27,608 nucleotides of DNA from a virus, in the IMG/VR virus record IMGVR_UViG_3300030107_006512, positions 1 through 27,608 of that record. One strand, given 5' to 3'. Below the pieces are notes generated by a model. That model was given only the letters and a program-made list of their open reading frames with translations, did no database searches and was not told where the DNA came from. A program made the position numbers and the translations under genes. Positions 2,758-27,608 of the stretch are shown piece after piece. Position 1 is the first letter of the stretch, and every line of letters begins with the position of its first letter.

Positions 2758-2790
2758 GTAAAAAATTTAAAAAACAAGTAATAATAACAA
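2757..2790 (+). repeat. Copy 2 of an AT-rich intergenic element
   Basis: The 34 bases starting AGTAAAAAA right after the fibre stop match 28 of 34 positions with those at 11931-11964 after the holin gene. Looser similarity exists at 837-867. It lies at a gene boundary where a new transcript could start. Low complexity weakens the case. Confidence 0.3.
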
Positions 2791-2844
2791 TATACCTGCT
2801 CGGTTAAGAGCATAAAACCAAATATAAACTTAAAACCAAATATT

Positions 2845-3135
2845 ATGACGTTTTATTATCAGACTAGAACGTGGAATAGTCAACCACAGGTTTCTGAACA
2901 AACCAAAGAGCTATGGAAACACATAGCGGATAAGAAAAACTGGAGGATAGTTCAACTACCCAACGGTTTTTATCAAACCGAGTACCAAGACCTCGAAAAA
3001 AAAGATACTTGGCACGATGTAACAAGGCGTGAAACCGTTGAAGGAGCTGAAGCAGCTATCGACTCATCAGTTGATCATTATGCTAAAAAGCTCGAATATA
3101 TAAGCGGGCCGAAAGTCGTGAAAACCTTTAAATAA
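2845..3135 (+). CDS. Conserved-looking small phage protein, 96 aa, unknown function
   Basis: The protein starts MTFYYQTRTWNSQPQVSEQT and continues with a Trp/Tyr-rich segment (WRIVQLPNGFYQTEY) that looks like a small beta-hairpin, followed by a helix (VEGAEAAIDSSVDHYAKKLE). There is no signal peptide or membrane span. I do not recognise the family. It lies between the fibre genes and groEL, 31 bases before the chaperonin start, and probably shares its transcript. Base composition is less AT-biased than in the flanking genes. A role in virion assembly is a guess from position only. Confidence 0.6.
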   Translation: MTFYYQTRTWNSQPQVSEQTKELWKHIADKKNWRIVQLPNGFYQTEYQDLEKKDTWHDVTRRETVEGAEAAIDSSVDHYAKKLEYISGPKVVKTFK

Positions 3136-3166: not shown

Positions 3167-4711
3167 ATGATTGTTAAAAATCTAAATTTTGGCACAGATG
3201 CCAGAGATCAGGTATTTAAAGGTATAGAAAAACTCACTAACGCTGTTAGCTCCACATTAGGGGCTAGCGGCAAGTGTGTAATACTAGAAGATGCTAAAGG
3301 AAATCCAACTATTACTAAAGATGGTGTAACTGTAGCAGATTCTATTATACTTTTAGATCCAGTAGAAAATATGGGTGCTACTTTAATTAAAGAAGCAGCA
3401 CGTAAAACAGTAAAAGAAGCCGGGGACGGAACAACTACAGCTACTCTATTAGCACATGCTGTATTAAAAGAAGCATATTCAAACATTGATAAAACAAATA
3501 CTAGAGATATAAAAGAAGGTATTTTATCAGGAGTAGAAAAAGTAGTTAAATATTTAGAAAAAAATAGTGTACCTGTTTCAGGAGATATGATAGATCAAAT
3601 TGCTACAATATCCACAAACAATGATAAAGAATTAGGTAAATTAATAGGAGATGCTTTTAGAGCCGTAGGTCAAACAGGTGTTGTAATAATGGAACCATCT
3701 ACTGCTGGTGAAACTAAAGTAGAAGTAGTAGAAGGTGTAGAATACAATAAAGGACTTTTAAATCCTAATTTTATTACCGATAAAGAAAAAAATATTTGTG
3801 AATTAAATAATCCTTTAGTAATGATTGTTGATTCAAGAATTGATTCAATAAGACAAATACAAAGTGTATTAGAAAAAATCATAAAAACTAATAAATCATT
3901 ATTAATTATAGGAGAAGTAGATCCTGCTGTTTTATCAGGATTAGTAATGAATAAAATAAAGGGTACTATTAAAGTAAATGTAATTGATCCACCAGCTTTT
4001 GGATTAAGACGTAAAGAAATTTTAGAAGATTTAGCATTACTTACAAATTCACAAATAATAGACGAAGGTTTAGGAGATGATTTAAATACAATACAACTTG
4101 ACTACCTAGGTACTTGCTTAAAATCAACTACTAGTAATGATCAAACTATAATTCAAATAGAGGAAACAACTGAAGAAGTTGATAAAATAATTTCTAAAAT
4201 CAAAAAAGATTTAAAGAAAAAATTAAAACCTCATGAAGTAATAGGATTAGAGCATAGATTAAAAAGATTAAGTGCTAAAGTTGCTATAGTTAAAGTAGGT
4301 GCAAATTCAGATATTGAATTAAAAGAAAAACAAGATAGAATAGAAGATGCTATCTGTGCTACAAAAGCCGCTATTAAAGAAGGTATAGTATCAGGTGGAG
4401 GTGTTGCGTTATTAAACGCCGCTCTTAATACAAATGAAGAGAATATAGGAGAAGAAATATTAAGTAGAGCAATTTTAGCTCCATTTAAAACGATTCTAGA
4501 AAATGCTGGTATACAGCCTACAACTCCAGAAAAAGAAGGTTTTGGAATAGACGTGGTTACGGGAAATATGGTACATATGATTGATACTGGTATTATTGAC
4601 CCACTATTAGTTACTAAAAGCGCTTTAACTAACGCGGCTTCAGTAGCAGCTACTATTTTATCAACTGATTGTGTAATTAATAACATTAGAGTAGATGAAA
4701 GCAGTAGGTAG
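3167..4711 (+). CDS. groEL: Phage-encoded chaperonin GroEL (Cpn60)
   Basis: GroEL forms ATP-driven ring complexes that fold proteins in the cytoplasm. This 514-residue protein aligns along the whole family. It keeps ITKDGVTVA with Asp52, AGDGTTTAT with Asp87, the SGGGVALL loop (409-416) and RIEDAICAT with Asp394, equivalent to E. coli Asp398. The ATPase core therefore looks intact. In the apical domain, EGVEYNKGLLNPNF places Leu197 and Asn201 where E. coli has the substrate/GroES-binding Tyr199 and Tyr203, while the following Phe is kept. The C-terminus stops at VDESSR without the flexible GGM-repeat tail, which explains much of the shorter length (E. coli 548). The gene overlaps groES, placed downstream, by 17 bases. 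It probably folds capsid, fibre or other phage proteins. Confidence 0.96.
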   Translation: MIVKNLNFGTDARDQVFKGIEKLTNAVSSTLGASGKCVILEDAKGNPTITKDGVTVADSIILLDPVENMGATLIKEAARKTVKEAGDGTTTATLLAHAVLKEAYSNIDKTNTRDIKEGILSGVEKVVKYLEKNSVPVSGDMIDQIATISTNNDKELGKLIGDAFRAVGQTGVVIMEPSTAGETKVEVVEGVEYNKGLLNPNFITDKEKNICELNNPLVMIVDSRIDSIRQIQSVLEKIIKTNKSLLIIGEVDPAVLSGLVMNKIKGTIKVNVIDPPAFGLRRKEILEDLALLTNSQIIDEGLGDDLNTIQLDYLGTCLKSTTSNDQTIIQIEETTEEVDKIISKIKKDLKKKLKPHEVIGLEHRLKRLSAKVAIVKVGANSDIELKEKQDRIEDAICATKAAIKEGIVSGGGVALLNAALNTNEENIGEEILSRAILAPFKTILENAGIQPTTPEKEGFGIDVVTGNMVHMIDTGIIDPLLVTKSALTNAASVAATILSTDCVINNIRVDESSR

Positions 4712-4955
4712 AAATTTAATTATACAAAAAATAGAAGAAGGAACCACTCAAACTGATGGAGGATTATTTTTAAATAAAAATGATCGTAGTGATATTAGAT
4801 ATATAGAAGCAGTTGTATTATCAGTTGGTGAAGAAGTAGGTGGTTTAAAAGAAAAAGATAAAATATTTTATGATAGACACGCTGGGCATCAAATTGAAAT
4901 AGATGATTCTATTTATCATGTGATTAAAGCGCAAGACGTCGTCGTTGTTTTATGA
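4695..4955 (+). CDS. groES: Phage-encoded co-chaperonin GroES (Cpn10)
   Basis: GroES caps the GroEL ring. The 86 residues show the family order: MKAVGRNLIIQKI first strand, a mobile loop at about 15-32 with GGLFL in place of the E. coli GGIVL tripeptide, VVLSVG, KEKDKIFYD, and a DVVVVL C-terminal strand. It is about ten residues shorter than the bacterial protein. The start lies inside groEL (4695, overlap 17 bases), so translation may depend on ribosomes finishing groEL. The stop overlaps the next start as ATGA (4952-4955). The order groEL then groES reverses the usual bacterial operon. A hydrophobic mobile loop fits binding to the adjacent phage GroEL or to the host's. Confidence 0.93.
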   Translation: MKAVGRNLIIQKIEEGTTQTDGGLFLNKNDRSDIRYIEAVVLSVGEEVGGLKEKDKIFYDRHAGHQIEIDDSIYHVIKAQDVVVVL

Positions 4956-5398
4956 AAAGGCTATCGGCAGGAGATTTAAAAGATCTCAATCTGCTTAAAC
5001 ACTATCGCATTATCCGTAAGTGGGCTTGTAAAAACAACGGCTTAACAGATGCTGAGCTGGAATTATTAATATATTTAGATTGTGTGGATATGTTTACTAT
5101 TGATGATTTTAAAATAGGTACATATTCATATAGTTGGAATAATAGACGTTGGAACAAATTAATACAAAATGATTGGATAGTAGTTTGGAGACATCGAAAT
5201 AGAACAACACAAAAATATAATATTTATAAAATTTCTTTTAAAGGTAAACAATTAATACAAAGAATTTACCGTATAATGCTAGGGGAAGATGATATACCTA
5301 CTAGTGAAAGAAGAAATAAAATAATGAAAGGAAATACATATATGGATAAAGTTTTACAAACATCTATATATAATGTAAATAAAGATAAAAACAGATAA
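4952..5398 (+). CDS. Winged-helix-like protein, 148 aa
   Basis: The gene begins in a 4-base ATGA overlap with groES, so it belongs to the chaperonin operon and is probably translationally coupled. Residues 10-110 read as a winged helix: an N-terminal helix (HYRIIRKWACKNNGLT), a helix-turn-helix (DAELELLIYLDCVDMFTIDDF, then WNNRRWNKLIQNDWI) and a basic two-stranded wing (VVWRHRNRTTQKYNIYKIS), followed by a helix and a Lys/Arg-rich tail. This resembles MarR-type or replication-initiator winged helices. It could regulate the late operon or bind a dyad such as that at 733-755, but no partner is shown. No enzymatic motif is visible. The fold call is moderately sure and the function unknown. Confidence 0.7.
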   Translation: MKRLSAGDLKDLNLLKHYRIIRKWACKNNGLTDAELELLIYLDCVDMFTIDDFKIGTYSYSWNNRRWNKLIQNDWIVVWRHRNRTTQKYNIYKISFKGKQLIQRIYRIMLGEDDIPTSERRNKIMKGNTYMDKVLQTSIYNVNKDKNR

Positions 5399-5399
5399 T

Positions 5400-6059
5400 A
5401 TGGCAATAGGTACAGCATCAACTCTTTCTTCCGGCTCTGGTCAGAATATGAACACGGGTATTATGCCTTTTGTACCAGGAAGTGGTTTTGGACAAAATAT
5501 GATTTCTCAAGCAGCACAAGCGGTTCAAGCAATTAAAGATACAAAAGCTCCTAATGAAGGTTCAGGTGGATTACTTGGTGAAATTGAAAAACTAGAACAA
5601 TTAATAAACTCAAGAGGTGGAAAAGGTGGGTTTCTAGGTACAGCTTTACAAAGATCTTTAGATACTAAAATAGAAGAATATAATAATAATGCATTAAGAA
5701 CAGGTGGTCGTAAATATGGTGAAGCTGTTGATGATGAAAATTATTTAGCAAGAGTAGCTAAAAGAAGAGCCTCTTTTGAAGCAATGAATAGTGCAGAAAC
5801 AGAACCAACTTCTACTTTAGGAGTAGTACCGGCTCAATTTCAAGGAGAAACATTAGAAGAAAACAATACAAATATGAGTTTACAATCTCCAGGCGTTGAT
5901 ACAATGTCAGCTGCAAATAACACAGTTATAGGTGGAGTACCTGTAAGCACAGTAGGTGGTGGTTTTTCACCTAATACAACTAATACATCTAAAGGCATAT
6001 ATGGTAATGCTTTTGACAGACAAAGAGCATTTAAAAAACCATTAATAAAACTAACATAA
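5400..6059 (+). CDS. Low-complexity virion-associated-type protein, 219 aa, unknown
   Basis: The start follows the previous stop by one base (TAATATG). The protein is rich in Gly, Ser, Asn and Thr, with a predicted helix around residues 34-46 (ISQAAQAVQAIKD), another at about 58-70 and a charged helix near residues 85-130 (ARVAKRRASFEAM). The C-terminal third is disordered-looking (NTTNTSKG) and ends with a basic RQRAFKKPLIKL. This is the look of internal or minor virion proteins, but I recognise no family. Its place between the chaperonin operon and structural genes suggests a virion or assembly role. Co-transcription is likely given the one-base spacing. Confidence 0.6.
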   Translation: MAIGTASTLSSGSGQNMNTGIMPFVPGSGFGQNMISQAAQAVQAIKDTKAPNEGSGGLLGEIEKLEQLINSRGGKGGFLGTALQRSLDTKIEEYNNNALRTGGRKYGEAVDDENYLARVAKRRASFEAMNSAETEPTSTLGVVPAQFQGETLEENNTNMSLQSPGVDTMSAANNTVIGGVPVSTVGGGFSPNTTNTSKGIYGNAFDRQRAFKKPLIKLT

Positions 6060-6071
6060 AAATAAATTATT

Positions 6072-6290
6072 ATGCACAATAAAAAATATGATCCATCAAT
6101 GGAAAAATTAAAACCAGGAACTAAAGTTGGTATAGTAGGAGAATCTCATATATGGGATGGACCTCTAGATCAAGTAGGTAGGCCTCATGGTAAAGGTTGG
6201 AGCGCTGGTATTACAGGGATGCAAATATTAAAAGCACCTTCAATGTACAAAGCCGGCCCAATAACGCAAAATGCAAAAGAATATAAATAA
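6072..6290 (+). CDS. Small hypothetical protein, 72 aa
   Basis: The protein reads MHNKKYDPSMEKLKPGTKVG then GESHIWDGPLDQVGRPHGKGW and ends NAKEYK. It is rich in Gly, Pro and Lys, without a predicted membrane span or a motif I know. The start is preceded by aaaataaatt, the usual A/T leader, and the gene lies 12 bases after its neighbour. Context in a run of closely spaced genes supports it being expressed. Function unknown. Confidence 0.55.
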   Translation: MHNKKYDPSMEKLKPGTKVGIVGESHIWDGPLDQVGRPHGKGWSAGITGMQILKAPSMYKAGPITQNAKEYK

Positions 6291-6307
6291 TAAATTAAAA
6301 CTTAAAC

Positions 6308-6790
6308 ATGGCAAATAATCAACCATTTAGTTCGGTCCCAGTTATTCCTAGTGATACATTGAATATTCCTCAACCTGGAATTATAACTTCTGGAACAAAT
6401 TCTACAGTAGGTACTGTTTTAACAGATGCAGCTCAGGATTTTTTACCTAGCACTACCAATGCAAATGGATATAATATCTCTGGAGGAGATGTTGTATATG
6501 CTGGTGGCGCTATAGACCAAATTGAATCAGTAAGATCAATTACTACTCTTACAATGAGTACAAGTACAGCTGCCGCTACTTATGATATATATAAAGGTAA
6601 TCTTGATGGTGAGACTGCTTTTACTTTATTTGTAGGTACTGGAGGTGCGGGTTCTACATTAAAACTAAGAACCCCAGCAGGAGATGATGTAACACTTAAT
6701 AATATTCCTGATTCTTCATTTATTCCTTTACAAGCTATTAGAGTTTTCGCAACGGGAACAACTTGTAGTGATATTTTAGCACTTAACTAA
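6308..6790 (+). CDS. Beta-rich virion structural protein, 160 aa
   Basis: The N-terminus reads FSSVPVIPSDTLNIPQPGII, and the body has repeated small-residue beta patterns (GDVVYAGG, TTLTMSTS, TLKLRTPAGDDVTL). The end, IPLQAIRVFATGTTCSDILAL, follows a pattern I associate with small beta-barrel virion proteins of marine phages. That match is from memory of the style, not from a search. No transmembrane or enzymatic motif is visible. It likely decorates the head or forms part of a fibre or spike base. The next gene starts one base after the stop, so the two are probably made together. Confidence 0.6.
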   Translation: MANNQPFSSVPVIPSDTLNIPQPGIITSGTNSTVGTVLTDAAQDFLPSTTNANGYNISGGDVVYAGGAIDQIESVRSITTLTMSTSTAAATYDIYKGNLDGETAFTLFVGTGGAGSTLKLRTPAGDDVTLNNIPDSSFIPLQAIRVFATGTTCSDILALN

Positions 6791-6791
6791 A

Positions 6792-6965
6792 ATGCCGGGC
6801 GGACCAAGTATGTTGGCTAATGCCAACGCGATATTAGCAGTACCTTTAACTATACAAGGTGGTGGTGGACCTAGTCCTGTAACTTGGTTTATATTAGCTG
6901 AGAATGGTGATATATGCGAAACTGAAGCTGGAGGTAATTTAATGGTTCAAGAAGTAGCTCCATAA
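6792..6965 (+). CDS. Small protein, 57 aa, between two structural genes
   Basis: ATG at 6792 follows the preceding stop (6788-6790) by one base and opens 57 codons ending in TAA at 6963-6965, 23 bases before the next fibre. The product begins MPGGPSMLANANAILAVPLT, then has a GGGG loop and a short hydrophobic strand (TWFILAENGDICETE). It fills the gap exactly and keeps the codon style of its neighbours, so it is probably real despite its size. The Ala/Gly content suits a minor virion component. I know no family for it. Confidence 0.65.
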   Translation: MPGGPSMLANANAILAVPLTIQGGGGPSPVTWFILAENGDICETEAGGNLMVQEVAP

Positions 6966-6988
6966 CAACTTAAAATAAAAATAATAAA

Positions 6989-8371
6989 ATGGCAAATATA
7001 AAATTTTCAGCATTTACAGCTGAAACAGATCCAACTCAAATAGATTTTTTAGTTGGTTACCAAAGTTCAACTATGAAAAAAATATCCCCTAGCAATGTAG
7101 GTGGTGGTGCTACTGATTTAAATGGTTTATCAGACTGTTTAGTTGATGGCAATTCAGTTTATGTTGCAGAAGTACCTAGCGGTTTAAGTGGTAACCCAAT
7201 TGACAATACAGTATTTGGAATAGATGCTGGAGATGGTTTAACAACCGGATTTGGTAATACTTTTATTGGATTTGAAGCAGCAAAACTAATAACAGATTCT
7301 GATAATATGGTTATTATTGGAAGACAAGCAGCTAACGCAAGTTCTTCAAATGGAGATAGAACAGTAGCAATAGGTTATGATGCTTACGGAAGTTCAATAT
7401 CAACAGACAACGTAGCTGTAGGATATGCAGCTTCACAATTTAGCGGAGTTAATTTTTGTGTAGCTGTTGGTCAAAGCGCTGCTATATTCAATTCGGGTGC
7501 TCAATCAGTATCTATAGGGCCTAGTACAAATTATAGTAATTCAGCTACTGGCACTGTATCAGTTGGTTATCAAGCAAGTTACTCTCAAACATCAGGCGCA
7601 AATAACACTAATCTAGGTTATCAAGCAGGTTACGGAATATCAACAGATGGTAATAATACTAACATAGGTTATGAAGCAGGTGCAGCAGGTATAGGTGCTA
7701 ATAACACTTTTATTGGTGAAGGTGCTGGAAAAGGTTATAATACAGGAACTTCAATAGCAGGAGACAATATTGCAATAGGTGTTGACGCTATGAATCAACG
7801 TAGAGGTGGTTCAGGTGGTAATACTGTTGTAGGTAATAATGCTTATAAAAATACTGATGGTGGAGCTGAAAATGTAGTTATTGGTAAAGATGCAGTACCA
7901 ACAGCAACAACAGGAAGTAACAATGTTGTTATTGGACACGCTGCTGATTTAAGCGCTGGATCAGATAACAACTCTACTGTAATAGGAGATACAGCAGCAG
8001 GAAATGGTGATAATACAATTACATTAGGTAATGGATCTATAACTGGTTTGCATTGTCAAGTAAGTACTATATCAGCTTTATCAGATAAAAGAGATAAAAC
8101 AAATATTGAAGAGTCTAATTATGGATTAAACATAATAGATTCTTTAAATCCTGTAATCTTTGAATGGAATCAAAGAGACGGAAACAGAAAAGGATTAAAA
8201 GATTTAGGATTTATTGCTCAAGATTTACAAGAAGTAGATGATGAATTTTTACAACTTGTTAATTCTAAAGACCCAGAAAAATTACAAGCAAGTTATGGAA
8301 GATTAATTCCTGTACTTGTAAAAGCAATAAAAGAATTAAAAGAAGAAATAGAACAATTAAAAAAATCTTAA
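6989..8371 (+). CDS. Tail fibre with YadA-like head repeats and S74 self-cleaving chaperone
   Basis: Residues 1-38 (MANIKFSAFTAETDPTQIDF, VGYQ, KKISPSNV) resemble the docking motif of the fibres at 892 and 1441. About residues 80-345 form roughly a dozen repeats of the type N-T-x-I-G-x-x-A-G, as in trimeric YadA head domains and phage shafts. The C-terminal 96 residues form an intramolecular chaperone of the endosialidase type (peptidase S74): LSDKRDKTNI gives Ser365 and Lys370, spaced as in the known Ser-Lys cleavage pair, followed by GLNIIDSLNPVIFEWN, GFIAQDLQE and a terminal coiled coil (KAIKELKEEIEQL). By family knowledge the chaperone trimerises the fibre and then cuts itself off before the Ser, leaving about 364 residues in the virion. 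Confidence 0.9.
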   Translation: MANIKFSAFTAETDPTQIDFLVGYQSSTMKKISPSNVGGGATDLNGLSDCLVDGNSVYVAEVPSGLSGNPIDNTVFGIDAGDGLTTGFGNTFIGFEAAKLITDSDNMVIIGRQAANASSSNGDRTVAIGYDAYGSSISTDNVAVGYAASQFSGVNFCVAVGQSAAIFNSGAQSVSIGPSTNYSNSATGTVSVGYQASYSQTSGANNTNLGYQAGYGISTDGNNTNIGYEAGAAGIGANNTFIGEGAGKGYNTGTSIAGDNIAIGVDAMNQRRGGSGGNTVVGNNAYKNTDGGAENVVIGKDAVPTATTGSNNVVIGHAADLSAGSDNNSTVIGDTAAGNGDNTITLGNGSITGLHCQVSTISALSDKRDKTNIEESNYGLNIIDSLNPVIFEWNQRDGNRKGLKDLGFIAQDLQEVDDEFLQLVNSKDPEKLQASYGRLIPVLVKAIKELKEEIEQLKKS

Positions 8372-8617
8372 ATGTATAAAAACACAATAAAATCAGAAAA
8401 TACACCAGATTCACATAAAAAAGTAATTACAGATCAACTTGATCACCAATTAGCTCAAATAGCAGCTGGAAATAATGTAGACTCAATTAAGACTCATTTT
8501 GAATGGGTGTTGATTAATGATTTTTATAAAAACGAATTATCAAGCGATAAAATAACAGAAATGGAATCTTATTTAGATGCTAATTACGCAGATAAACACC
8601 AAGATATACCATCATAA
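8372..8617 (+). CDS. Small helical protein, 81 aa, unknown
   Basis: The start is the base right after the fibre stop (TAAATG), so it is probably translated from the same message. The protein is acidic and helical: HKKVITDQLDHQLAQIAAGN, then SIKTHFEWVLINDFYKNELS and a final helix (ITEMESYLDANYADKH). There is no membrane span or known motif. Possible roles include a fibre-assembly helper, given its place directly behind a fibre gene, but this is position-based inference. Confidence 0.6.
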   Translation: MYKNTIKSENTPDSHKKVITDQLDHQLAQIAAGNNVDSIKTHFEWVLINDFYKNELSSDKITEMESYLDANYADKHQDIPS

Positions 8618-8625
8618 TATAGTAT

Positions 8626-8660
8626 AAACAATAACAACAACAATAACAAAAACAATAATT
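8626..8660 (+). promoter_or_regulatory. CAA/AAC-rich leader
   Basis: The 35 bases before the ATG at 8661 are almost pure A and C with some T (caataacaa units) and can hardly fold. A similar leader precedes 10548. No Shine-Dalgarno sequence is present. This is probably an unstructured translation-enhancing leader of the Bacteroidetes type. Confidence 0.4.
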
Positions 8661-9368
8661 ATGGCATATAAACAAAACAATCCTTTATCACGTCAAAAAT
8701 GGGGTGGTAATAAAGATGAATTCCATAGACATATGGATGCTGAAGGTCACATGACTAAAAGTGGCGTAGTAGGTGGTGGTAAATATGGTAAAGGTGGTCA
8801 TTATAAAGATTATGAAGGAACATCTAGAAAATCTTCAGAAGAAGGTATGTCTAGACAAAAATATGGTGGTAATAAAGGTGATTTAAGAAGATCAGCACCT
8901 AGAGATTACGAAGCACCTTCAAGACATGGATCTATGAAAGGTGATCAATCTGCTACTCATGTAGATTATGCACATTATAAAGGAACTGATAAAGGATACC
9001 ATGGACACACAGGTGCTTCTCATGGTGATCAATCTGCTACACATAGAGATTATATGATAGATCCTAGAACTCATTCTCCAATAAGTAATGCTAGTCATTA
9101 TGGTATTCAAGGAGTAAATGAATCAGATTGGATAAAATACGGAGGAGATGTAATAGATGAAACAGCTCAAAAACACGAAGGTATGTCTAGAATGTCATCT
9201 CCTTTAAATAGTGATGATAGATGGATACAAGACGCATTTGATGATGTTAAAGCAAGAGGTACTGAAGGTGTTTGTACCGGAGATAAATTTGGTAGTTCAA
9301 GTTGTCCTCCAGGTAGTAAAAGATACAATATGGCTAAAACTCTTAGAAAAATGGCTAAAAATAGATAA
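8661..9368 (+). CDS. His/Gly/Lys-rich repetitive protein, 235 aa, unknown
   Basis: The protein contains 14 histidines and short internal duplications: SRQKWGGNKDEFHR with SRQKYGGNKGDLRR, and GDQSATHVDY with GDQSATHRDY. Tyr, Gly, Ser and basic residues dominate the first two thirds, which look disordered. The end is more ordered (CTGDKFGSSSCPPGSKRYNM then a basic helix AKTLRKMAKN), with two Cys nine residues apart. It has no membrane span or catalytic motif. It is followed two bases later by another His-rich gene. Histidine clusters could bind metal or act as a pH-sensitive or DNA-binding disordered region. It may be a minor virion or internal head protein; I recognise no family. Confidence 0.6.
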   Translation: MAYKQNNPLSRQKWGGNKDEFHRHMDAEGHMTKSGVVGGGKYGKGGHYKDYEGTSRKSSEEGMSRQKYGGNKGDLRRSAPRDYEAPSRHGSMKGDQSATHVDYAHYKGTDKGYHGHTGASHGDQSATHRDYMIDPRTHSPISNASHYGIQGVNESDWIKYGGDVIDETAQKHEGMSRMSSPLNSDDRWIQDAFDDVKARGTEGVCTGDKFGSSSCPPGSKRYNMAKTLRKMAKNR

Positions 9369-9370
9369 TT

Positions 9371-9982
9371 ATGGGATACAATAAAAAAGGACATCACGGA
9401 CATTATAGTGGTAATGCACACCACTCTAAACATCACATGGTAAACTCATGGGAAGAAGAAGATGTAAAAAGAGGTAGAAAACTAGAGCATGAGGGACATT
9501 CAGGTCATGCTGAAGCATTATTTGATGATGCTCATGATAGTTACAATTGGCATCCTGGAATGCATACTCATGCTGAACATGCGCTATCTAGACATAGATC
9601 AGGGCATTTAGATAACGCAACACCAGGGGAAATAAGTTTAAGTAAAGAAGATCTTGCAAATAAAAAATCCAAAAGAGCAACAGGGTTAGGATCTATTGAT
9701 TTTGCTAAAAAAGCTGGAACAACCTCAATGCCAGATAAAGATTATGAAAATCTAGAAGTTGGTACAGCACCAAAAATAGGTGAACTAGGTGCCGAACTAA
9801 TTGGAACAGAAGCTTTACGTACAGCAGCGGGTAAAGCAGGTAGACTTAAAAGCTATGAAAGATTAAGTGAACAAAGGTATCCAGAACAAGGAATAGGTAG
9901 AGGATTAATTCGCGCAAAAGAAAATGCACGAAAGATTAAAATGATGCAGAATATTGATAACAAATTAAAAAGACAACAATGA
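9371..9982 (+). CDS. Protein with strongly His-rich N-terminus, 203 aa, unknown
   Basis: Seventeen histidines fall within the first 80 residues (GHHGHYSGNAHHSKHH, later HPGMHTHAEHALSRHR), after which histidine disappears. Residues 90-203 are a basic helical region (LGAELIGTEALRTAAGKAGR, RGLIRAKENARKIKMMQNID). The split suggests a metal- or proton-binding head on a DNA- or protein-binding tail, though neither is demonstrated. It starts two bases after the previous His-rich gene and overlaps the following start by four bases (ATGA, 9979-9982), so the three genes probably form a co-translated set. I recognise no family; an internal virion protein is one possibility. Confidence 0.6.
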   Translation: MGYNKKGHHGHYSGNAHHSKHHMVNSWEEEDVKRGRKLEHEGHSGHAEALFDDAHDSYNWHPGMHTHAEHALSRHRSGHLDNATPGEISLSKEDLANKKSKRATGLGSIDFAKKAGTTSMPDKDYENLEVGTAPKIGELGAELIGTEALRTAAGKAGRLKSYERLSEQRYPEQGIGRGLIRAKENARKIKMMQNIDNKLKRQQ

Positions 9983-10473
9983 GTTTATTAGATAATATAA
10001 AATCTAGCTTTTTAGGTAATAGAAATAGTTTTAATGTAACTTTTAATAATAGAAATCCATTAAGCTATGTAGGAGATGCAAGTATACCTTCTCATGGTTC
10101 TTCTATACAAACACAAATGGAAGCTCCTGCTGTAGAAGATGTATATAAAGCTCATAGTCCTAAAGAATATTTAGCTGCAGAAACTAAAATGCATCAAGCA
10201 AAAGGTGGAGCACTTGGAAAAGTAGCTTCAGGGGTAATAGGTGCGGTTGCTGGTAAAGCTTTTGGTATGGAAGGAGGTTTTGGAGAGAGATTTATGGAAG
10301 CTGGAAAAAAGGGTATATTCGGTGTAGGTTCTAAACAAGAAGATGATAGTTTTTTTAAAGATGATGGAAGTGGAGAATTAAAAGATGACAAAAAATTTAA
10401 ATCTGAATATGACTCAAATGAAGTAATGGAAGAATACTGTGAACGAAATCCTAATTCTTACTTTTGTGGTTAA
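9979..10473 (+). CDS. Small protein with Gly-zipper-like segment, 164 aa, unknown
   Basis: It is translated from an ATGA overlap with its neighbour. Residues 75-101 (GGALGKVASGVIGAVAGKAF and on) form a Gly/Ala-rich hydrophobic segment of the sort that packs in membranes or helix bundles. The following part is very acidic and basic (DDSFFKDDGSGELKDDKKFK), and the end has two cysteines (CERNPNSYFCG). A membrane-active segment in a soluble-looking protein recalls ejection or internal virion proteins of short-tailed phages, but this is a guess. The N-terminal 60 residues are Asn/Ser-rich. No known family. Confidence 0.55.
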   Translation: MSLLDNIKSSFLGNRNSFNVTFNNRNPLSYVGDASIPSHGSSIQTQMEAPAVEDVYKAHSPKEYLAAETKMHQAKGGALGKVASGVIGAVAGKAFGMEGGFGERFMEAGKKGIFGVGSKQEDDSFFKDDGSGELKDDKKFKSEYDSNEVMEEYCERNPNSYFCG

Positions 10474-10500
10474 TAATATAACAGTCATGGATCTGTATAA

Positions 10501-10547
10501 AACCAAAAACAATAAACAATAAACAATAACAATTAAAAACAAAAATT
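10501..10547 (+). promoter_or_regulatory. A/C-rich leader with AATAAAC-type repeats
   Basis: The leader contains aacaataaacaataaacaa and leads straight into the ATG at 10548. It has no Shine-Dalgarno sequence and almost no G, like the leader at 8626-8660. It is likely an unstructured leader for efficient initiation. Confidence 0.4.
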
Positions 10548-10982
10548 ATGGCAAAATGGATTAATTTTAACGTAGTCGGCGGTGTTACTGACGGACAAGG
10601 TGCTACTCCTGCTCCACAAATGGACGGAGATAATTTACTACTAGCAGATAGCGTATGTGCTGTAGAAGTTGCTGCAACTGCTGCGGGTGCTCCAGATGAT
10701 GGTGCAATCAAAATAACACTAACGCTAACAAACGCAACAGCTGCACATGACACATGTGAAGTATTAATAGCAACTTCAGATGTTGCAAGTGCTTCACCTA
10801 ATAATAACATACCAAGTTCAGCTAATTATGTAAATGCAGTTAAAAAAGCTGTAAACAGAGCTCTTACTGCAAACCCAGGTGGTGTTAAGTCAACGGTTAC
10901 TTTACCACTAGATACAGCAGACCCAACAGCTGCTTATGATCCAGCACTTAGAGTGTACTTTAGAAGTTTCTCAATCACATAA
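10548..10982 (+). CDS. Ala/Thr-rich putative virion protein, 144 aa
   Basis: The protein (MAKWINFNVVGGVTDGQGAT and on) is rich in Ala, Thr, Val and Asp, with a predicted beta-sandwich feel (IKITLTLTNATAAHDTCEVLI) and a helix (YVNAVKKAVNRALTA). It ends RVYFRSFSIT. Codons and GC are less AT-biased than in nearby genes, resembling the capsid gene, which suggests high expression. A long unstructured leader precedes it. A decoration or other abundant virion protein is a reasonable guess. No motif proves this. Confidence 0.6.
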   Translation: MAKWINFNVVGGVTDGQGATPAPQMDGDNLLLADSVCAVEVAATAAGAPDDGAIKITLTLTNATAAHDTCEVLIATSDVASASPNNNIPSSANYVNAVKKAVNRALTANPGGVKSTVTLPLDTADPTAAYDPALRVYFRSFSIT

Positions 10983-11930: not shown

Positions 11931-11964
11931 AGTAAAAACCTTAAAAAATAAGTAATTATAATTA
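11931..11964 (+). repeat. Copy 3 of an AT-rich intergenic element
   Basis: AGTAAAAA-cc-TTAAAAAA-t-AAGTAAT matches the element at 2757-2790 in 28 of 34 positions. It follows the holin stop and precedes the next gene cluster by about 70 bases. It may be a phage promoter or processing site. Base bias makes chance similarity possible. Confidence 0.3.
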
Positions 11965-23776: not shown

Positions 23777-26700
23777 ATGCCAGAAATAACTAATAATTTT
23801 CTAAAGTCCAAAATGAATAAAGATTTGGACGATAGATTAATACCAAATGGCGAATATAGAGATGCTATAAATCTACAAATTAGTAGATCTGAAGGCTCAA
23901 GTGTTGGTGAATTTGAGAATATTCTGGGAAACAGTTTAGTAAATAATGGATATTTACAAACCGGAAGTACAAAAAATACTGTAACTGGTTCAATTTCTGC
24001 TTATCATTCTCAAGTTATTGGTCAGTATACTGATGAACCTAGTGGAAATATTTTTATATTTAGCACAACTAAAAACACTGGTTTAGACCCAACAGATCTT
24101 GCTTATACTAGAGGAACTGGACAAACAGATAGAGATATAACTGTTAACACTAATCCAGCTGGTGTTACTATAGGTGAGACTATAGTATTATATAATGGAA
24201 CTGTAATATTAAACCCCCAAGTATTAGGTATTAAAGTAGGTATGTCTGTTTGGGGACCAGGAATTGATGGGGCTACTACACCAGGAGATCCAATTGTAAG
24301 CGAAGTAAATACAGGTAATATAAAAATTTCATGGAATCCAGCAGGATTAGGAACAATAGCGGCTAATTCATCTTTAACGTTTGGATGGAATAATACTATT
24401 CATGTTTATAATGTTAACACAGGAGAGTTAAAATTATTAGTAAAAGGTGGTTTTTTAAATTTTAATATAGAATCTAAAATATATGGAATAAACTTGTTAG
24501 AAGGTTTATTATTTTGGACAGATAATAGAAATCAACCTCGAAGAATAAATGTAAATGATGCTATTGCAAATGCTGCTTCTTCACTTTTCTTATCTCCAAC
24601 TTATTATACTAATGAAGATCAAATATCTGTAGCTAAATATTATCCTTATGAAGTACCTTTAGTTTTAGAACAAACAGTATTAACAGACGCTCAAGTAAGT
24701 AGTGGAGTTTATCCAGCGGCAGGAGCTGCTGTAAATATAAGAGGATATGAAGTAACTTTAAGTGCAGATCCCGCAGGTTTAGGAATAAAAATTGGTGATT
24801 TAGTAACAGGATTTCCAGGTCAAGGAGATCAAGAGCTTTGGGAGGTTATTTGGATGGAATCTGGAGGTACTTTTAAAATTGTAGTTTATAATAATTTTAG
24901 TAATAGACCAGGGACTGTTCCTAATCCTGGCGCGTGGACTGGAACATCATTAACATTTTCACGTCCTACAATGACTAATGAAAGTGAAGTAAAAAAAGAA
25001 AATGGTTTTACTACTACATTAACTGGTGGTGCAGGTGCTATTAGTGCTGGAACTCTTTTTACTTTAAATTATCCTTTTAATAATACAGCTGGTGATCCTA
25101 GTGGACAACCAACTCCTCAAGTAGGTGATTATATAACGAGTACTACTATGAGCGGTGGTATTACATTAGCTGATGAGATATGTGTTCAAAACATAGATAA
25201 TATTATACCTGGTACATCAATAAGTTTAAGTTTAACTAAACCAATTACCGCTGTTCTTGGAGATGATATTACTATAGGTGCTAATCCTGATTATAATTCT
25301 ACCTTTACAGGTGATCCTGATTTTATAGAAGATAAATTTGTAAGATTTAGTTATAGATTTAAATTTATAGATAATGAATATTCTATTATAGCGCCTTTTA
25401 GCCAAATATGTTTTATACCTAGACAATTTGGATATTTTGGTGGAGGTCAACAAGAGAGTAATCAAGATATGATTGATACTTATTCAAGTACTGTTGTGGA
25501 ATGGTTTGAAAATAGAGTTAATAATATTGGGTTAAAAATTCCTTTACCTTCATTAGGAGCTAGAGTTGCTAAAGCTTCTTCTACAACTGTAGGTGCAGTA
25601 GCAGCAGGTACTCCTATTAATATTAGTTTATTAGATGGGGTTATAAGTTTAGGAAACATTGTAAACAGTTTTGACACAGGGGTTGCAATACCGGCTAATA
25701 CTATTGTAACGGGTGGTGATTTATCTACCACTATTGAATTAAGTAATGATGTAACATTAGTTAATCCTACTTATTTTAATTTTATTCCAGATGCTTTAAC
25801 GTCTTTAACAGAAAATCATCAAGTAAAAGCAATAGAAATTATTTATAAAGAATCAGATTCATTAAGTACTAAAGTTTTAGAATCTTTAGATGTAATAGAT
25901 GATATAGCTACTACAGATATTTCTACTATTCCTAGTACTAGTGATGCAGAATATTATTATACATATAAATATAAATCTAGTAAACCTTATAAAACTTTAC
26001 CAGAAAATCAAACAACAAGAGTATATGATAAAGCTCCAATTAAAGCTTTAGCTCAAGAGGTTACAGCTAATAGAATAACTTATGGGAATTTTGTAGAAAA
26101 TCATACACCACCTAGTGCTTTAGATTATGAAACTTTATATAATGATAAATCTATATCTTATAATAACTATGTTCAATATCCTAACCACTCAGTAAAACAA
26201 AACAGAAATTATCAAGCTGGTTTTGTATTAGGTGATAGATATGGTAGACAATCAAGTGTAATATTATCATCTAATGATAATAATGAACTTACTGCAGGAT
26301 CTACAGTTTATGTTCCTTATAAAACTTGGAATGAAGTTCAATTTACAGGTGGATTAACTACATATGAATGGTTAGGCAGCGTGTTAAGAGTTAAATTAAA
26401 TAATGGTATTAGTAGCACATCAGATAGTATTACAGGTGAACCTGGAATTTATAAATCTTATAATAACACTGAGGTTGATTCAGCTTCAATAGTTAACGGT
26501 GGAGCAGGTTATGTCGTAGGTGATACGTGTACTACTGTTGCTTTACCTGGAAACATAGGGCTAGGTGCTGGATTTACATTCACTGTACAAAGTGTAGCAG
26601 CTGGTGTTATAACAGGTATTAAAATTACTAAACGTGGTAGTGGTTACGCTAATGGTCAAGTTTTGGATGTTGTTGGTGGTACTGGTACATTAGCACAATT

Positions 26701-27608
26701 AGCTGTTACAGTAAACCCACCAAATGTGTTAGGTTGGCAATCTTATAAAATAGTAGTAAAACAACAAGAACAAGAATATTATAATGTTTATCTTCCTGGA
26801 TATGTAGATGGTTATCCTGTAACATTAGCAAAAGATAGAGGAAGAGTAGCATTTGCATCTTTATTTAGTGATAATATAAACAAAGTACCAAGAGATTTAA
26901 ATGAAGTAGGACCATTACAAACAGAATTTTCTGCTTCAGTACTATTATATGGTAGAGTAAATAACCCTTCTATTAATAATAGAAATTTACCCACAGGTGA
27001 ATATTATACTAACAGACCTGTTCCTTGGAATACACAATATTTTCCAGGTAGAAAAGCAGATGAGGTTACAACTATAGGACCAATAGGCCAAGGTGGCTTA
27101 GAGTTAGCTAATTCACCATTCTCCGCAAGTGCAGTTCAAGGAGAATTTACTAATACTACATCTATATGGGATCAAGGAACCGGTACTACTGTTGCTCAAA
27201 ATCCTCAATTACCATGGGGACCAGCAGGTGCTGATCAAAGTTTTTATAATGTTGAGCAAAATCCTTTAGCTATAGGTGTTAAAGTAGGGAGTGATGAACC
27301 GCAGCCTCAATTAACAACTACAGGTAATACTGTTTTAAACACTTTAGGTGCTTATGTAACTAATAACGCACTTGTAGATCCTCCTACTGTGAATGTTATG
27401 TGTATGAATCCTTTTTTAAGTATTTCTGAAACAGAACCAGTTGAAAGTGCTTTAGATATATTTTGGGAGTCTTCAACTACAGGTGATTTTGCAGCATTAA
27501 ATAGACAAGTAGTAGCTGATTACGCAGGAGTAAGTGGAATGTCAATTACAAGTGCAAGTACTCCTGAAAATGATGCAAGTGGAACAACTATACCTCTTGC
27601 TGCTTCTT
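23777..27608 (+). CDS. Very large tail (nozzle-type) protein, N-terminal 1277 residues, 3'-truncated by the window
   Basis: ATG at 23777 follows the preceding stop by four bases, and I read the frame through to the window edge with no stop: 1277 complete codons. The start, KSKMNKDLDDRLIPNGEYRD followed by INLQIS, is a pattern I associate with large tail proteins of marine phages. Residues 756-775 (KALAQEVTANRITYGNFVEN) and 801-820 (YPNHSVKQNRNYQAGFVLGD), with DRYGRQS just after, belong to the same type. Residues 908-979 look like an inserted GSGY/GGTGT beta domain. Residues 1210-1229 (MNPFLSISETEPVESALDIF) suggest that further beta domains follow. A nozzle or tail-tube tip such as T7 gp12 or P22 gp10 is the likely role, inferred from order and size. 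Confidence 0.8.
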   Translation, partial: MPEITNNFLKSKMNKDLDDRLIPNGEYRDAINLQISRSEGSSVGEFENILGNSLVNNGYLQTGSTKNTVTGSISAYHSQVIGQYTDEPSGNIFIFSTTKNTGLDPTDLAYTRGTGQTDRDITVNTNPAGVTIGETIVLYNGTVILNPQVLGIKVGMSVWGPGIDGATTPGDPIVSEVNTGNIKISWNPAGLGTIAANSSLTFGWNNTIHVYNVNTGELKLLVKGGFLNFNIESKIYGINLLEGLLFWTDNRNQPRRINVNDAIANAASSLFLSPTYYTNEDQISVAKYYPYEVPLVLEQTVLTDAQVSSGVYPAAGAAVNIRGYEVTLSADPAGLGIKIGDLVTGFPGQGDQELWEVIWMESGGTFKIVVYNNFSNRPGTVPNPGAWTGTSLTFSRPTMTNESEVKKENGFTTTLTGGAGAISAGTLFTLNYPFNNTAGDPSGQPTPQVGDYITSTTMSGGITLADEICVQNIDNIIPGTSISLSLTKPITAVLGDDITIGANPDYNSTFTGDPDFIEDKFVRFSYRFKFIDNEYSIIAPFSQICFIPRQFGYFGGGQQESNQDMIDTYSSTVVEWFENRVNNIGLKIPLPSLGARVAKASSTTVGAVAAGTPINISLLDGVISLGNIVNSFDTGVAIPANTIVTGGDLSTTIELSNDVTLVNPTYFNFIPDALTSLTENHQVKAIEIIYKESDSLSTKVLESLDVIDDIATTDISTIPSTSDAEYYYTYKYKSSKPYKTLPENQTTRVYDKAPIKALAQEVTANRITYGNFVENHTPPSALDYETLYNDKSISYNNYVQYPNHSVKQNRNYQAGFVLGDRYGRQSSVILSSNDNNELTAGSTVYVPYKTWNEVQFTGGLTTYEWLGSVLRVKLNNGISSTSDSITGEPGIYKSYNNTEVDSASIVNGGAGYVVGDTCTTVALPGNIGLGAGFTFTVQSVAAGVITGIKITKRGSGYANGQVLDVVGGTGTLAQLAVTVNPPNVLGWQSYKIVVKQQEQEYYNVYLPGYVDGYPVTLAKDRGRVAFASLFSDNINKVPRDLNEVGPLQTEFSASVLLYGRVNNPSINNRNLPTGEYYTNRPVPWNTQYFPGRKADEVTTIGPIGQGGLELANSPFSASAVQGEFTNTTSIWDQGTGTTVAQNPQLPWGPAGADQSFYNVEQNPLAIGVKVGSDEPQPQLTTTGNTVLNTLGAYVTNNALVDPPTVNVMCMNPFLSISETEPVESALDIFWESSTTGDFAALNRQVVADYAGVSGMSITSASTPENDASGTTIPLAAS

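Follow-up and report, generated by a model that had tools for sequence, protein, structure and literature searches.

Chaperonin genes and their neighbours

The window, meaning the whole stretch of DNA analysed, is a linear IMG/VR record of 27,608 bases. It encodes a chaperonin pair in which groEL lies ahead of groES, followed by a gene for a winged-helix protein (Table 1). The 514-aa GroEL matched Pfam Cpn60_TCP1 (E=1.3e-56) and the PHROG groEL family (8e-137), its group I chaperonin domain was full-length (PF00118 spanning 23-506), and the ATPase/chaperonin motifs DGVTVA, GDGTTT, and RIEDAI were retained. The C-terminal GGM tail, which is common in bacterial GroELs and non-essential, was found in 0 of 116 relatives. 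The 86-aa GroES was identified by Cpn10 (PF00166, E=6e-11) as well as by PHROGs, and the hydrophobic mobile loop GGLxL was conserved in the 23 sequences compared. The earlier note had read this locus as groEL preceding groES with a 17-base overlap, coupled through ATGA to a winged-helix-like gene. Its coordinates were correct to the base, Pfam and PHROG agreed on the chaperonin genes, the join at 4952 was confirmed, and AlphaFold2 and Foldseek returned a MarR-type fold for the third product. The groEL/groES overlap, ATGAAAGCAGTAGGTAG, reads VDESSR-stop in the groEL frame and MKAVGR... in the groES frame, and the third ORF begins within groES. The coupled block starts one gene before groEL, at 2845. 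A homologue of this first gene, o2845, was present in 127 of 164 loci. Searches of PHROGs, PDB, and phage records with its product found no relative of note; one PDB match (E=0.0016) was to the designed protein ThreeFoil.

Table 1. Positions of the features at the locus, counted from the first base of the window.
Feature	Positions	Strand	Evidence and remarks
Promoter-like box ACAAGTAATAATA	2774-2786	+	motif ACAAGTRAYWATA; putative promoter
H-type pseudoknot	2794-2811	+	S1 2794-2796 with 2802-2804; S2 2798-2801 with 2808-2811; covariation
Two exact TAAAACCAAATAT copies	2813-2825, 2831-2843	+	directly 5' of the first start codon
o2845, 96-aa conserved protein, function unknown	2845-3135	+	first gene of the block; conservation
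groEL, group I chaperonin without GGM tail	3167-4711	+	Pfam, PHROG, motifs
groES	4695-4955	+	Cpn10 domain; 17-nt overlap with groEL
MarR-like winged-helix protein, 148 aa	4952-5398	+	predicted fold; ATGA overlap with groES
Tandem-GroES-like protein, 201 aa	12521-13126	+	phrog_13932 E=9e-24; AlphaFold pLDDT 88; Cpn20 fold

Two other regions were noted. The stretch from the MarR-like gene to the lysis genes (5400-10982) was variable among relatives (tail fibre, S74 proteins), with conserved flanks. A giant ORF (23777-27607) extends past the window end and gave weak, sub-cut-off matches to the crAss muzzle protein and a PHROG virion protein.

Relatives, host, and GroEL phylogeny

Among phage records, the closest match to the window TerL was that of Podoviridae sp. 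ctfjg026 (MW202828; 64% identity), the Flavobacterium elemo phages matched at 45%, and Cellulophaga phages also matched. The clade consists of uncultured marine relatives of flavobacterial podoviruses (Cellulophaga phi38:1, elemo, Panino). Since the TerL relatives are flavobacterial phages and the cellular GroELs nearest to that of the window come from flavobacteria (about 43% identity), the host of the window phage and of its clade is probably a flavobacterium.

GroEL was compared with cellular copies, as the earlier note had proposed, in a quick tree whose deep order is unsure because long branches meet deep. The window clade (99) grouped with elemo, Panino, and MW202828, then with phi38:1 and phi14:2, and the clade and the phage group containing it fell outside the sampled cellular GroELs. 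SJC03 was placed among Bacteroidales, and the GroELs of Vibrio phages near Gammaproteobacteria. The topology fits an old phage lineage, with separate later captures. The idea that the phage recently acquired groEL from its host was unsupported, given the modest identity of the best cellular match and the placement outside cellular sequences, the depth of which is unsure.

Gene order and overlaps across the clade

IMG/VR loci were collected as the best 80 for each of two queries (groEL and the MarR-like protein), with some contigs common to both sets. groEL, groES, and the MarR-like gene were on one strand in all fetched loci whose contig reaches them. In the 130 distinct loci from these best-80 sets, groEL and groES overlapped by 17 nt in 94 and by 20 nt in 34, and groES was joined to the MarR-like gene by the 4-nt ATGA overlap in every one. 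The two groEL/groES exceptions were L084, with a 1-nt overlap, and L129, with a split groEL. In L129 groEL occupied two frames (3822-5360), a frameshift or an assembly error, and the operon was otherwise typical. Protein identity among these relatives fell to about 62% for GroEL and 48% for GroES. The overlaps were conserved far beyond chance (128/130 at 17 or 20 nt; 130/130 ATGA).

In cellular genomes groES came first in 78 of the 78 loci where both genes were found, which bears out the statement that bacterial operons usually start with groES. The order varied among phages outside the clade: groEL was first in elemo, MW202828, and Panino, groES was first in immuto, SJC03, cthkR962, and phi38:1, and no groES adjoining groEL was found in the Vibrio phages examined. 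A groEL match was present in 254 phage records, many of them near-identical elemo records, of which one was inspected (groEL then groES).

The earlier note had presented the reversed order and the winged-helix neighbour as unusual, with the proviso that they would be a family norm if most viral groEL genes had them. Within the clade this is what the survey of viral groEL loci found, because the order, the overlaps, and the neighbour are the clade norm, and the claim of novelty does not hold there. The reversed chaperonin order is ordinary for the clade, and the leader pseudoknot is the part of greater interest. As far as the tools show, what is new about the genes is the clade-wide invariance of their coupling. 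The suggestion of joint control fared better: drawn originally from the overlaps of one genome, it now has stronger footing in a conserved single leader and invariant overlaps, and it is kept here as a proposal, as is the earlier note's idea that the overlaps might fix translation ratios.

A covarying pseudoknot in the leader

Many relatives have one common leader upstream of o2845. In the window, the pseudoknot reads ACC-T-GCTC-GGT-TAA-GAGC, and an AACCAAA element of the leader is conserved in relatives. Across 126 loci the promoter-like motif ACAAGTRAYWATA had 60 matches on the coding strand and 0 on the other, a bias partly due to all genes lying on one strand. Intergenic DNA made up 19% of the sequence and held 52 of the 60 matches, mostly 27-89 nt before an ORF, a count that is partly by construction because the motif was first noticed in the same leaders. 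A near-match to the box (ATAAGTAATTATA) was seen in the region from the holin gene to the next ORF (11943-11956). Panino, elemo, and MW202828 (L002, L004, L165) have Bacteroidetes-type -7 boxes (TATATTTG, TATCTTTG) directly before groEL, a position unlike that in the window clade. Two other candidate signals were set aside: sigma-70-like promoters were not in excess (24 versus 20.9, sd 4.4, in shuffles), and terminator-like sites were all on the minus strand.

In 43 aligned sequences 98.7% of the pseudoknot cells were paired versus 90.1% (sd 1.1) in shuffles, a percentage that is partly by construction because the alignment was picked for motif fit and omitted 4 of 47 distinct cores, whose loops were long or carried an additional base. 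Sliding the partner strand dropped pairing to 11-44%. Compensatory changes on both sides occurred in 4 of the 7 pairs, a level reached by 0 of 500 shuffles; the first S1 pair was CG in 24 and AU in 17 of the 43. Two crossing helices with compensatory changes, the hallmarks of an H-type pseudoknot, were thus both present. A blind IMG/VR scan was carried out with a pattern that fixed S2, the GG of S1, and AACCAAA and left the 5' strand of S1 free. It returned 119 matches, 80 of them before an o2845 homologue. S1 paired in 76 of these 80 leaders versus 2 of 38 matches elsewhere (3 of 39 before L333, the o2845 leader of L010's contig, was reassigned). The motif occurred once in the window when both strands were searched, and an Rfam search of the leader gave no family at the gathering threshold and chance matches only. 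Both the leader pseudoknot and the promoter-like box that accompanies it are new as far as the tools show.

The leader repeat could also be viewed as DNA. Short palindromes are the targets of MarR-type proteins, and the inverted repeat TGCTC-N6-GAGCA lies downstream of the promoter-like box and ahead of the first gene, where a DNA operator of the MarR-like protein would mediate classic autorepression and the pseudoknot pairing would be incidental. We consider this improbable. The distance between the arms ranges from 5 to 8 nt, which would disturb a dimer site, and an operator would not account for a second helix that covaries independently, nor for S1 pairing in the blind scan that is near-complete before o2845 and rare elsewhere. 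Moreover, the repeat was absent upstream of groEL in MW202828 and Panino, both of which have a MarR-like gene.

The pseudoknot is specific to this operon and belongs to its first gene, o2845. It was absent from about a third of 84 distinct leaders, several of which had a plain hairpin instead, and loci without o2845 were also without it. The hairpin (ATGC...GCAT) was seen at the pseudoknot's place upstream of o2845 in L054, L057, L058, L063, L065, L068, and L080. Since the pseudoknot co-occurs with o2845, it may serve that gene alone or may also govern the chaperonins. We tentatively advance, as a serious possibility that falls somewhat short of being probable, that it is an unrecognised cis-acting element, confined to the head of the chaperonin operon, which sets the timing or amount of the chaperonins, possibly by sensing a phage protein, for example the o2845 product.

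That the pseudoknot tracks o2845 instead of groEL as such would also suit another account, in which it serves o2845 only, the overlaps are mere genome compaction, and the genes are translated independently. Phage genes often overlap briefly. However, compaction by itself would not preserve the ATGA join in every distinct locus of the best-80 sets, and the groEL/groES overlap lengths are near-invariant despite the divergence of both proteins. We therefore regard this account as unlikely.

The MarR-like protein

A Pfam search of the ORF at 4952-5398 gave no match at E up to 1, and its sole clear PHROG match was a family of unknown function. The AlphaFold2 model, built with 29 relatives, had a mean pLDDT of 91.5 and showed a winged-helix fold with terminal dimerisation helices. 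The Foldseek PDB matches listed for it were MarR-type regulators (prob about 1, TM about 0.46-0.5, best E=3.9e-3). On the predicted fold the protein is MarR-like, and it is not filed here as a MarR family member; as far as the tools show, the modelled MarR-type fold is new for this ORF.

Its position leaves room for another role. In the window the gene sits among tail and lysis genes, and the phi38:1 homologue is flanked by annotated structural proteins, so that the product might be a virion or lysis-module protein reusing the fold instead of a DNA-binding regulator. The fold itself is typical of MarR, however, and the stretch comprising the recognition helix and wing is basic (10 K/R and 1 D/E in 43 residues); the phi38:1 homologue, for its part, is annotated as hypothetical and not as structural. 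A virion or lysis role is accordingly judged quite doubtful, and a DNA-binding role is preferred. IMG/VR searches with the winged-helix proteins of MW202828 and Panino yielded 1 and 6 loci, too few for a wider survey.

A second, tandem-GroES-like protein

A further candidate co-chaperonin is encoded close upstream of the terminase. This 201-aa protein belongs to a PHROG GroES family (phrog_13932). Among PDB entries its modelled fold was closest to that of the tandem Cpn10 protein Cpn20, with a match along the whole chain (E=4.5e-5). Its sequence profile had no match among PDB Cpn10 chains, and Cpn10 sequence similarity was otherwise weak or absent. The assignment rests mainly on the predicted fold, for which we call the protein tandem-GroES-like. 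The family was found in 77 phage records; these are the elemo, phi38:1/Calle, MW202828, and Panino phages, and the groEL searches gave matches in all of them. A single GroES together with a MarR-like homologue was seen in phi46:3, of the Pachyviridae, a phage that did not appear among the groEL matches listed. The putative tandem-GroES-like partner is new as far as the tools show.

A model for the operon

Building on what was directly observed (the genes, predicted folds, overlaps, covariation, and clade-wide conservation), we consider it probable that the locus represents the usual chaperonin operon of a large uncultured marine phage clade, with one transcript, a leader pseudoknot, coupled translation, and a MarR-like regulator. 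o2845, groEL, groES, and the MarR-like gene would form one transcription unit, probably starting from the promoter-like box at 2774, and the single transcript would most likely be late. At its 5' end the mRNA would carry the small pseudoknot, which lies some 33 nt ahead of the first start codon and may tune translation or stability. groES and the MarR-like gene would be translated mainly by ribosomes terminating on the preceding gene, through the 17/20-nt and ATGA overlaps, and the output of both would thereby follow that of GroEL. GroEL and its own GroES could then form a working folding chamber, with bulky virion proteins as presumptive clients. The most likely role of the MarR-like protein is to bind phage DNA, by which it may adjust transcription of the operon or of neighbouring genes.

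Phage GroELs are known, and an account of their expression control was not found in this analysis. In this clade such control could be tested in a natural and abundant setting: a chaperonin operon whose overlaps are near-invariant, which has a MarR-like gene of its own, and whose RNA leader covaries. Should the pseudoknot regulate the operon, it would count as a new RNA element of phages and could help to show at what point they require a folding machine of their own. With the tandem-GroES-like partner, the question arises whether GroEL in these phages is capped by two different lids.

Comparison with known systems

Marine relatives of phi38:1 with GroEL have already been published, as 36 genomes of group 2 of marine Bacteroidetes phages (PMC5332604). 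Group 2 belongs to the same broad phage group as the window, and its GroELs are related to those of Cellulophaga phages; the passages on GroEL found in that paper do not mention GroES, gene order, overlaps, a MarR-like gene, or a leader.

The crAss-like phages cr108_1, cr111_1, and phi14:2 resemble the window in that groEL precedes a small regulator and TerL, and in cr108_1 and cr111_1 a GroES-like gene lies between the regulator and TerL. The crAss 10-kDa chaperonin was the only crAss protein matching the window GroES (Prob 92%). Ancient synteny of groEL, regulator, GroES, and TerL was considered and rejected: the VpsT-like regulator had no profile homology to the MarR-like protein (Prob below 1%), and no GroES was detectable in the ORF that overlaps groEL in cr108_1 and cr111_1. 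The crAss-like order is a positional resemblance only. Chloroplast Cpn20 likewise resembles the phage 201-aa protein in full-length fold without a sequence-level Cpn10 match in PDB.

Further parallels are in flavobacterial phages and their relatives. Elemo phages share with the window the order of groEL and groES, which lie on a single strand and in elemo overlap by 1 nt, and the tandem-GroES-like protein, and differ in having no MarR-like gene alongside, no detectable o2845, and no upstream pseudoknot. The GroEL of MW202828 is only about 34-36% identical to that of the window, and no pseudoknot precedes its gene; groEL and groES nevertheless overlap in the same order, next to a MarR-like gene that is convergent on the other strand. 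In phi38:1 the MarR-like gene lies apart from groEL. Maribacter phage Panino carries GroEL and GroES (PMC11590407), with a small ORF separating the two genes and the MarR-like homologue on the opposite strand. Because the MarR-like gene is distant from groEL in phi38:1, and Panino and MW202828 encode it on the opposite strand, its coupling to the chaperonin genes is not required everywhere. Panino nonetheless shares with the window both a groEL that comes first and a MarR-like homologue, located about 1.5 kb away.
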